Of a stretch of 47,977 bases of DNA, positions 6,833 through 9,404 are shown piece by piece. Numbering within the stretch: the first letter of the stretch is position 1; every line of letters starts with the position of its first letter. The notes under the pieces are model-generated. The model saw nothing but the letters and a program-made list of their open reading frames with translations. It was not told the origin of the DNA and did not search any database. Source of the stretch: Akkermansia sp. Lineage in GTDB: Bacteria; Verrucomicrobiota; Verrucomicrobiia; Verrucomicrobiales; Akkermansiaceae. A program made the translations under genes and the position numbers. Where the stretch lies: contig JAFYRS010000078.1 in the NCBI GenBank assembly GCA_017546845.1, forward strand, positions 1 to 47,977. The letters run 5' to 3'.

Positions 6833-7339
6833 ATGCGCGTTGTCAGCATAGACCCGGCCATCCGCAACACGGGCTACGCGGTAATCGAAGGCGATTACCG
6901 CGCCCCGCGTGCGCTGGAGTACGGCACGCTCTCCCTGCCCGCCAGGCTCAGCCAGAGCCAGTGTCTGCTGGCGATTCACGAGCACGTGTGCGCCCTCATC
7001 GAAAAATGGCAGCCCGATGAACTGGCCATCGAGGGCATCATCTATGTGCAGAGCCACCGCACCGCCATCACCATGGGCTCAGCCCGCGCCGCCACAGTGC
7101 TGGCTGCGGCTAAATACGGACTGCAGATTATGGAATACCCGCCCACCTGCGTCAAACTGGCCACAGTGGGCCGCGGCGGCGCCGGCAAGCAGCAGGTGGC
7201 ATTCATGATGCGCGCCCTGCTCTCGCTCACCGAAACGCCCGCCCCCGATGCCGCCGATGCCCTCGCCATCGGCTACACCCACATGGCCGCCACAGATCCG
7301 CTCCGCGCCCACCTTTTCAAAGAGCGTAAGTATATTTAA
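6833..7339 (+). CDS. ruvC: Holliday junction resolvase RuvC
   Basis: 168 residues. An endonuclease that cuts Holliday junctions symmetrically during recombination, working with the RuvAB branch-migration motor. The RNase H-like active site is complete: Asp7 (MRVVSIDPA), Glu67 (ELAIEG), Asp139 and Asp142 (PDAADALAI). Length and motif spacing are normal. It starts nine bases after the helicase stop, so it is probably cotranscribed. ruvA and ruvB are not next to it. Past the stop lies the hairpin array, which may also end this transcript. Confidence 0.93.
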   Translation: MRVVSIDPAIRNTGYAVIEGDYRAPRALEYGTLSLPARLSQSQCLLAIHEHVCALIEKWQPDELAIEGIIYVQSHRTAITMGSARAATVLAAAKYGLQIMEYPPTCVKLATVGRGGAGKQQVAFMMRALLSLTETPAPDAADALAIGYTHMAATDPLRAHLFKERKYI

Positions 7340-7354
7340 GTCCGACCAACGGGA

Positions 7355-7600
7355 GGATATCGTCTGCGGCATCGCCGCAGATATCGTCCATGCGCAGCGT
7401 GGATTTCGTCCTTGCCCGCCAGGGCAAGGATTTCGTTCTCCTCATCAAGCTCGGGTTCGCTTTTTCCCAATGATTGGGAAAGGATAACGCCTTGCATCAT
7501 TGGAAACGATATCCGGGCGTTGCCCGGACGATATCGCCCTTGCGGCCGACGATATCTGAGCCTGCGGCTCAGACGATATCCGCTCCTGCGGAGCGGACGG
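7355..7600. repeat. array of short hairpins joined by a conserved GATATCGT/ACGATATC linker
   Basis: Between two convergent genes lie eight stem-loops of 6-8 bp with loops of 3-4 bases. Clean stems: CTGCGGC/GCCGCAG (7364-7380), CCATGC/GCGTGG (7388-7402), CCTTGCCC/GGGCAAGG (7410-7429), TTTCCCAA/TTGGGAAA (7463-7481), CCGGGC/GCCCGG (7513-7527), CTGAGCC/GGCTCAG (7556-7572) and CCGCTCC/GGAGCGG (7580-7596). One stem near 7535-7548 is imperfect. Stem sequences all differ, but the linkers are nearly constant: GATATCGT or GATTTCGT in the left half (7356, 7380, 7402, 7429) and ACGATATC in the right half (7506, 7528, 7549, 7573). The spacing is 21-27 bases. The right linkers are the reverse complement of the left ones. 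No protein-coding frame fits the region. Confidence 0.9.
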
Positions 7601-7615: not shown

Positions 7616-9352
7616 CTAACAAAAGAAATTTCTGTTGCCGAAGAGGAGGCGTTTGACGGTATCGAGCGCGGCGTGGGCTGATTGTTCCCCCAGGCTCTTG
7701 CAGTACCCCAGACCTTCCATGAACGTGAGCCCGGGCGGCAGCGGCATGGCATGGCGGTCTACCGCGGCATCCAGCAGGGCCGGGCCATCTGCGGCCAGCC
7801 ATGCCTTAATGGCCGGGATCGCCTCATCCACCCGTGAAACCCGCCAGGAGCGCATCCCCATGGCGCGTGCCACAGCGGCAAAGCTGGTGGTGCGCAGCGC
7901 CGTGCCCACAGGCGAATGAATCCCCGCGCGCAGTTGTTCAATGGCAGCGTAATCCAGCTCGGAATTATTGTACACCAGCACCTTGACGGCTAACCCCTCC
8001 TGCAGCAAGGTGAGCAAATCCCCCGCCAGCATGGAGATGCCGCCATCTCCACACATGGCAATGACCTGCCGGGTGCGGAATGCCGCCTTTGCCCCAATGG
8101 CCATGGCAAGCGCGCAGCCCATGGAACCGTGGTTGAACGAACCCAGAACACGCCGCGTTCCATTCGCCTGCAAATAGCGCGCGCACCAGATATCTGGCGT
8201 TCCCGTATCCACGGTAAAAACAGCATCGGGTTCTGCGTGGTCGCTCACCAGGCGGGTCAGCAGCTCCGGCCGCAAGGGCGCCTCTTCATCCACCACGCGC
8301 AGGCACTGGCTGATGGCGGCAACCTCGCGGGCATGGTAATTGAGCATGGAGCGCAGGAAATCATCGGACTGGTTCGGCGGCACCACGCGCAACAGCTGGC
8401 GGGCCGCCACCCCGGCATCTGCCTGCACGGCCAGCGTCAGCGGAACGCGGCGCCCCAGGGCGGCGGCATCGGTATCCACCTGAATCACCCGGACACGGCG
8501 AGGCAGGAAATCACGATAGGGGAAATCCGTGCCCCACATGACCAGCACATCGCAATCGAGCACGGCATGCACAGCGGCCCCCCAGCCCAGCAACCCGGTC
8601 ATTCCCACGGCGTTGGGGTTATCCTTCTCCAGCAAGTCCTTGGCGCGCAGCGTATAAGCCACCGGTGCCTGCAGATGCCTGGCCAGTGCCACAATGTCCT
8701 TCTCCGCCCCGTCACAGCCTATGCCACACAAAAAGGTAATGCGCTGGGAACTCCCCAGAATATCGGCCATGCGTGGTATCACCCCTGCGCCGGGATGCAG
8801 CAGTGGCGGCACCGGAGGCAATACCGGGCTCTCGGCCGCATCCTCCACGCAGGGCATGCCGGCCACGTCTCCCGGCAGCACCAGCATACCCACACCGCGC
8901 CGCGCGCGAGCGGTCCGCATAGCCTCAGCCAGTACCGGCGGAAGCTGGCGCGGACGGCTCACCAGCTCGGCATACGCCGCGCATTCCCGGAAAAAGAAGG
9001 TGGGGTGCGTTTCGTGGATATAGTGCGTACCAATCTGCAAGGTCGGCAGATGAGCAGCTATGGCAAGCACCGGAGCGGCAGAGCGGCAGGCATCATACAG
9101 ACCATTGATGAGATGCATATTGCCAGGCCCGCAACTGCCGCAGCACACGGCAAGCTCACCTGTGAGCTGAGACTCTGCACTGGCCGCAAAGGCGGCGGTT
9201 TCCTCATGGCGCACATGTACCCAGCGGATGCGGGCATCACGCTGCAACGCCTCCATGAACGGGTGCAACGCGTCACCCGCCATACCAAAAATACGGCGGA
9301 CTCCGGCGGACACCAACATTTCCACCACCTGGTCTGATACACTCTTCTGCAT
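7616..9352 (-). CDS. poxB: pyruvate dehydrogenase (quinone) / pyruvate oxidase, PoxB-like
   Basis: A thiamine-diphosphate flavoenzyme, about 578 residues, that would convert pyruvate to acetate and CO2, passing electrons to the quinone pool at the membrane. The N-terminal half matches PoxB closely: RHEETAAFAA holds the catalytic Glu, and GSCGPGN, HLINGLYD and FFRECAAYAELVS follow. The C-terminal thiamine motif is MCGDGGISML followed by NNSELD. The reading frame begins at 9388. I prefer the ATG at 9352 (MQKSVSDQ), which lines up with the E. coli start; the ATG at 9361 is a close alternative. It lies 45 bases after an HTH protein on the same strand. The membrane-binding C-terminal tail of E. 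coli PoxB is not obvious, so a related oxidase cannot be excluded. Confidence 0.85.
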   Translation of the reverse strand: MQKSVSDQVVEMLVSAGVRRIFGMAGDALHPFMEALQRDARIRWVHVRHEETAAFAASAESQLTGELAVCCGSCGPGNMHLINGLYDACRSAAPVLAIAAHLPTLQIGTHYIHETHPTFFFRECAAYAELVSRPRQLPPVLAEAMRTARARRGVGMLVLPGDVAGMPCVEDAAESPVLPPVPPLLHPGAGVIPRMADILGSSQRITFLCGIGCDGAEKDIVALARHLQAPVAYTLRAKDLLEKDNPNAVGMTGLLGWGAAVHAVLDCDVLVMWGTDFPYRDFLPRRVRVIQVDTDAAALGRRVPLTLAVQADAGVAARQLLRVVPPNQSDDFLRSMLNYHAREVAAISQCLRVVDEEAPLRPELLTRLVSDHAEPDAVFTVDTGTPDIWCARYLQANGTRRVLGSFNHGSMGCALAMAIGAKAAFRTRQVIAMCGDGGISMLAGDLLTLLQEGLAVKVLVYNNSELDYAAIEQLRAGIHSPVGTALRTTSFAAVARAMGMRSWRVSRVDEAIPAIKAWLAADGPALLDAAVDRHAMPLPPGLTFMEGLGYCKSLGEQSAHAALDTVKRLLFGNRNFFC

Positions 9353-9362
9353 GCCGACCATT

Positions 9363-9404
9363 CTCTGCGGCAGAGCAGGAAATAGCAAGCTAACTTTCTA
9401 GCTT
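9363..9404 (-). promoter_or_regulatory. two inverted repeats between the HTH gene and poxB
   Basis: CTCTGC-G-GCAGAG (9363-9375) is a perfect 13-base palindrome directly before the poxB ATG at 9361. AAGCTA-N6-TAGCTT (9387-9404) spans the stop codon of the upstream HTH gene. Either could be a binding site for the HTH protein or an RNA hairpin; this is inference from symmetry and position. Confidence 0.35.

Follow-up and report, generated by a model that had tools for sequence, protein, structure and literature searches.

An eight-hairpin array of Akkermansia as a member of a dispersed and apparently mobile family of DNA elements with a putative IVP-encoding parent

The 23S rRNA intervening sequences (IVSs) of Leptospira, Coxiella, and Brucella carry an S23p/IVP open reading frame; they have been proposed to be selfish elements, and in Coxiella heptamer repeats lie near the ORF (PMC4990558). 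REP and REPIN sequences, the companions of RAYT genes, are short GTAG-tagged palindromes that stand mirrored between genes. A further REP superfamily, tagged with CGTC, has been reported without a dedicated transposase (PMC3733652).

The window analyzed here is a stretch of 47,977 nucleotides from Akkermansia sp. (contig JAFYRS010000078.1), in which a hairpin array separates ruvC from a convergent gene of the PoxB type. Like the 23S IVSs, the element represented by this array has a form with a PF05635 gene between complementary ends. Unlike them, it is intergenic, abuts stop codons, occurs in many copies, has ordered hairpins with constant linkers, and has abundant ORF-less derivatives; instead of occupying a 23S rRNA helix, the window copy lies between ruvC and a thiamine-pyrophosphate (TPP) enzyme gene, and others lie at the ends of protein genes. 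With REPs and REPINs, the Akkermansia element shares short mirrored palindromes, intergenic positions 3' of genes, and non-autonomous copies. It differs from them in that its stems change from unit to unit, its 4+4 plan is fixed, the GTAG tag is absent, and the full-length form has an IVP gene, not a tyrosine transposase. Where a REP family would show one conserved stem with GTAG, the 158 distinct hairpins found here have 79 different stems and a linker, GATATCGT.

CGTC does precede each Akkermansia stem when the arms are read inward, as in the CGTC-tagged REPs. Those REPs, however, have an unpaired CGTC, a family-specific stem of 8-9 bp, and loops of 4-5 nt, whereas the Akkermansia stems are variable, the loops are 3-4 nt, the TC of CGTC is paired, and the hairpins stand in arrays of four and are linked to IVP. 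As in MITEs, ORF-less copies share their ends with a longer ORF-bearing form, and the site is empty in relatives; unlike in MITEs, the long form has no recognizable transposase and the ends are hairpin arrays. No target duplication was seen in comparison with relatives that are too diverged for certainty. Cyanobacterial inverted tandem heptamer arrays are similar in that IVP genes (on Nostoc-type plasmids) sit between inverted 6-8-mers but have no hairpins between repeat units. A CRISPR array was rejected, as in the original prediction, a first reading of the sequence alone: the spacers are hairpins, the arms are mirrored, and the units are few. That prediction was also right to set aside a protein repeat. 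Its exclusion of a REP pair holds for REP membership but not for the general design, which is REP-like. We do not file the element as a REP, CGTC REP, CRISPR, or 23S IVS because defining features were looked for and not found. In its workings it resembles a MITE family whose parent form carries IVP.

Architecture of the array

Family alignment of ends defines a 259-bp element that runs from a GTCC start to a GGAC end (Table 1). It begins immediately 3' of the ruvC stop codon, finishes before the convergent PoxB-like gene, and has no ORF; Pfam assigned the flanking genes to RuvC and to a TPP enzyme of the PoxB type, in agreement with the neighbors named originally. Mirrored arms of four hairpins each flank a 69-nt core that holds a conserved TTTCCCAATnATTGGGAAA palindrome. 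The eight hairpins, the near-constant 8-base linker, and the unit pitch of 21-27 bases described in the original prediction are all present. The array is slightly larger than the extent of 7355-7600 given there: the full element spans 7340-7598 and has the core palindrome in addition. The two linker forms that it listed are one sequence, GAT(A/T)TCGT, and its reverse complement (the left arm has GATATCGT or GATTTCGT, the right arm ACGATATC), hence the mirrored arms. Its description of the stems as nearly all perfect was too generous: 5/8 are perfect, and the other three contain a tandem G.A (7340-7357), one T.G (7387-7403), and one G.G (7535-7550). The single-strand fold of 7340-7597 has a z of -7.7 as DNA; as RNA, the z is -7.4 for the + strand and -7.7 for the - strand.

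Table 1. Features of the element and its flanking genes (positions in the window)
Feature	Position	Strand	Basis
Whole element, ORF-less, GTCC to GGAC	7340..7598	.	End alignment; array-less site in G018, G026, G059, G065
Left terminal hairpin, GTCCGACC-AAC-GGGAGGA, tandem G.A mismatches	7340..7357	+	
Linker 1, left arm, GATATCGT	7356..7363	+	
Left hairpin 2, TCTGCGGC-ATC-GCCGCAGA, 8 bp perfect	7363..7381	+	
Linker 2, left arm, GATATCGT	7380..7387	+	
Left hairpin 3, TCCATGC-GCA-GCGTGGA, one T.G pair	7387..7403	+	
Linker 3, left arm, GATTTCGT	7402..7409	+	
Left hairpin 4, TCCTTGCCC-GCCA-GGGCAAGGA, 9 bp perfect	7409..7430	+	
Linker 4, left arm, GATTTCGT	7429..7436	+	
Short core of 69 nt; 20+ copies have 66-72 nt	7437..7505	.	
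Conserved core palindrome, TTTCCCAATGATTGGGAAA	7463..7481	.	
Linker 4, right arm, ACGATATC	7506..7513	-	
Right hairpin 4, inward TCCGGGC-AAC-GCCCGGA, 7 bp perfect	7512..7528	-	
Linker 3, right arm	7528..7535	-	
Right hairpin 3, inward TCGGCC-GCAA-GGGCGA, one G.G mismatch	7535..7550	-	
Linker 2, right arm	7549..7556	-	
Right hairpin 2, inward TCTGAGCC-GCA-GGCTCAGA, 8 bp perfect	7555..7573	-	
Linker 1, right arm	7573..7580	-	
Right terminal hairpin, CGCTCC-TGC-GGAGCG, and GAC end	7579..7598	-	
ruvC, stop codon TAA abuts element	6833..7339	+	Pfam
PoxB-like TPP enzyme, convergent	7616..9388	-	Pfam

Dispersed copies, array-less sites, and the full-length form

The array belongs to a DNA element that is dispersed in Akkermansia and appears to be mobile. 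At least eight further places in the window genome (G000) have the element; a linker-hairpin-linker pattern gave 21 matches on nine contigs there, and the reversed control pattern gave 0. The GATWTCGT pattern matched 46 times in this genome and 33-89 times in each of seven other genomes of the genus; the remaining 51 genomes mostly had zero matches and otherwise 1-7. Among the matches listed in an exact-linker scan of all species genomes, most were chance singles, together with a few Akkermansia loci. Rfam 15 covariance models did not match the window element up to E 1. The original prediction would have taken the array for a local decay product had no other copies existed. The search that it proposed, for linker-flanked palindromes in this genome and its relatives, found many; that condition does not apply to a dispersed family whose site here is array-less in four relatives, and we rejected local decay. 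Two sites in G005 each have tandem near-identical copies that are unequal in hairpin number. Tandem copies of one element, with varying hairpin number and some joined as GGAC-GTCC, were also seen at L312, L164, L167, and L168.

By joined-flank alignment, the ruvC/poxB-like site has no array in four related species (G018, G026, G059, and G065). The G018 flanks align at 92.6% and 86.6% identity on either side, and the stop codons of the two convergent genes overlap at the array-less site. Dispersed copies, together with the array-less site in four relatives, identify the window array as an inserted element. Approximately 20 extra bases lie between GGAC and the conserved flank. No precise target-site duplication was seen at the window site, where the relatives are too diverged for certainty, and two joined-flank searches returned sites that were element-less or reduced to a remnant, with no clean duplication. 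At the sites of tsf, a DJ-1-like gene, and an ABC-transporter-cluster gene, some species have the element and others a remnant or nothing; one remnant matches the outcome expected of deletion between two GATATC linkers. At the DJ-1-like site of G000 (C108) and G018 (C126; L284, L285), a lone hairpin, GTCCGGGC-ACCA-GCCCGGAC, lies between two stops and is either an element remnant or a bare target. In G005, the 23-mer directly after one element has exact copies on two other element-bearing contigs (C127, C15, C79); it may be a repeat that adjoins the element or a target that the element prefers.

Element ends fall exactly after an ORF stop codon in 23/82 cases and one base on in a further 9/82, at a dozen genes. 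Together with the stable RNA folds on both strands, this placement would suit a bidirectional terminator, or an element of mRNA 3' ends, that has become domesticated, with copies kept for shielding convergent genes; the original prediction had likewise allowed a transcription-end role. We regard this as possible but somewhat unlikely: terminator-like sites (a GC hairpin with a T tract) numbered 1 versus 0.7 expected from shuffles, relatives manage without the array at the window site, termination needs neither eight hairpins nor an IVP gene, and the abutment of stop codons is perhaps a mere effect of very short intergenic space.

Full-length copies occur in G005, G010, G011, G012, G018, G035, and G059 and enclose a ~475-nt core between the same arms; this core contains promoter-like sequence (a TTGC...TA box upstream of the ORF) and a 113-aa ORF. 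This ORF belongs to Pfam PF05635, the 23S rRNA intervening-sequence protein or IVP (E 7e-23 and 4.5e-22, above the curated cut-off). The IVP gene is under strong purifying selection; among pairs with unsaturated dS, dN/dS was 0.02-0.04 for close pairs and 0.07 for one more distant pair. IVP is a small four-helix protein whose nearest solved chain is 2rld, and it is a putative relative of toroidal pentamers, as described for Xanthomonas S23p (PMC4990558). Inside full-length and short elements there is no recognizable transposase or reverse transcriptase. Type-A IVP (defined at >= 70% identity) was not found in G000, an assembly that is 82% complete and has ORF-less copies only.

Pairing, polarity, and turnover of the hairpins

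Several of the following family statistics count orthologous sites more than once, and the assemblies are MAGs. Among 174 distinct internal units, 158 are hairpins and 129 are perfect end to end, compared with 4.6% perfect after shuffling of the interiors; stems range from 4 to 12 bp, and loops are mostly 3 nt. When orthologous hairpins had changed stems, both versions were perfectly paired in 64/77 comparisons, which are non-independent. The comparison of stems across relatives suggested in the original prediction thus bears out its claim that sequence varies while pairing is kept, with the qualification that the commonest change between orthologous elements is a swap of the whole hairpin. 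Near-perfect Watson-Crick stems with two-sided or wholesale changes are also what replication template switching (quasi-palindrome correction) might make and keep, free of selection or mobility. As a full account, we consider this very improbable, since it leaves unexplained the fixed unit number, the constant linker, the loop polarity, the array-less site, the dispersed copies, and the IVP gene; it could act as a homogenizing step inside the element.

The plan of the arms is fixed: in 89/105 arms with a recognizable end, the terminal hairpin is accompanied by exactly three internal ones. The base 3' of GATATCGTC depends on rank, being T or G at rank 1 and C in 71/78 cases at rank 3. Fixed unit number, core length, and rank-dependent base together indicate that the array is not free-growing. 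When stems of equal rank were compared between the two arms, they were identical in 14/20 comparisons for ORF copies and in 0/63 for short copies; several of the ORF copies come from a single orthologous site, and a few rows for short elements match up tandem neighbors. Pairing between the linkers of the two arms is disfavored, because same-rank linker variants do not co-vary in the few elements inspected by eye; we therefore prefer a protein-recognition reading of the linkers.

Read inward from the ends, the triloops are G-N-A in 155 cases and T-N-C in 5, and the tandem G.A/A.G mismatch of the terminal unit, present in 43/95, lies on the same inward strand. The favored strand thus runs inward in both arms and therefore resembles terminal inverted repeats, not one transcript strand. 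This polarity counts against an RNA-level element similar to the 23S IVSs, in which RNase III would cut the transcript, IVP would bind the RNA, and reverse transcription in trans would spread it: a through transcript shows only one arm in the preferred strand. Mismatches showed no significant excess of G.U over A.C (14 versus 8, p = 0.29) that would speak for selection at the RNA level. No reverse transcriptase was found in array-rich G000, G010, G018, G012, G035, and G059, several of which are incomplete. In favor of the RNA-level scheme, 23S IVSs encode the same protein family (PF05635), and Avd of diversity-generating retroelements (DGRs), which has a related fold, is the partner of a reverse transcriptase. 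In Coxiella, moreover, the ends of the IVS are complementary, heptamer repeats precede its ORF, and RNase III processes it (PMC4990558). On balance, we judge an RNA-level element to be quite unlikely.

IVP clades, their repeats, and a candidate mechanism

Array-rich genomes coincide almost exactly with those that have a matching IVP (7/1/1/50, Fisher 2e-7; overlap 7/8). The two exceptions are the window genome and G065, whose IVP has 70% identity and carries a linker variant, AATATCGT. Other IVP clades of the genus have the same design with linkers of their own (such as TTATCTC, TTTCAT, TTCTTCAC, or AGGTAA), and repeat similarity tracks IVP identity (Mantel, 9/2000). In the phylum, 100/145 sampled genomes (about two thirds) have IVP genes; outside the genus, its classical SNIAEG-type IVP genes showed no hairpin arrays, although several of them have inverted short repeats. 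In other phyla, inverted tandem 6-8-mers flank several plasmid IVP genes (Nostoc-type, Planktothrix, Euhalothece, and Treponema plasmids); random positions passed the same test in 1/112 cases. No account of an association between IVP genes and hairpin arrays turned up in a literature search that covered few subscription papers.

Elsewhere, an IVP gene lies between cas2 and cas1 on plasmid B of Nostoc sp. TCL26-01 (L381), and another between hsdS and hsdR on a Monoglobus plasmid (L386), both apparent inserts in defense operons. In gut phage records and a viral contig (L387-L389), which derive from other gut bacteria or phages, upstream hairpins with GAA, GTGATAT, or GTGAAAT linkers flank IVP genes.

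The way in which the linker tracks IVP clade and presence argues against a REPIN-like arrangement, in which a Y1/HUH (RAYT-type) transposase would recognize single-stranded hairpins in trans and move both ORF-less and IVP copies, with IVP as a passenger. Most of these genomes do have RAYT-like Y1 genes, which themselves stand between mirrored hairpin arrays; the general design is like that of REP dimers, and the loop polarity is consistent with single-strand recognition. Among the Y1 genes listed, however, none is flanked by GATATCGT hairpins, the flanking hairpins all being of other types, so that no cognate RAYT emerged. Element-rich G005 (80% complete) has no short Y1 gene. We consider the REPIN-like arrangement unlikely. 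Neither a Y1 transposase nor a reverse transcriptase is supported as the partner, in draft genomes that limit both searches. The Y1 loci themselves (L339, L342, L332-L347) have mirrored arrays of differing hairpins, some with near-constant linkers (TTCGA/TCGAAAT), a parallel to the IVP elements.

From sequence comparisons, the array at 7340-7598 is probably an ORF-less, MITE-like copy of a palindromic mobile element whose full-length form carries promoter-like sequence and the IVP gene. The dispersed family, the fixed 4+4 plan, the array-less site, the correspondence of linker to IVP clade, and the selection on IVP support this explanation. We propose that an IVP oligomer would bind the constant linkers together with the hairpins in both arms, on the strand running inward from each end, and so bring the ends together. 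ORF-less copies might be served in trans and would be parasites or relics. Hairpins may be exchanged as modules between copies via the repeated linkers. Because the stems of one arm differ from each other and, in short elements, from those of the opposite arm, each hairpin could fold on itself and one long unstable palindrome would be avoided; identical arms would create such a palindrome, which may be why short elements do not have them. Counting against this explanation are the failure to see a precise target-site duplication, the extra bases beside the window element, and the negative search for a type-A IVP in G000; in Coxiella, moreover, the protein is possibly not even made (PMC4990558).

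More broadly, and much more tentatively, IVPs might serve the mobility or maintenance of a wide, unrecognized class of transposase-less elements, in which every protein clade would read an inverted repeat particular to it: hairpin arrays for Akkermansia, and tandem heptamers for cyanobacteria and others. The 23S rRNA IVSs would be one branch of this class and dispersed ORF-less repeats its derivatives. The element ties the role of S23p/IVP proteins together with the origin of short dispersed palindromes that have no transposase, and it bears on how many differing hairpins stay perfectly paired during sequence turnover. It also offers pairs of protein and repeat that can be tested, with one linker to each IVP clade.
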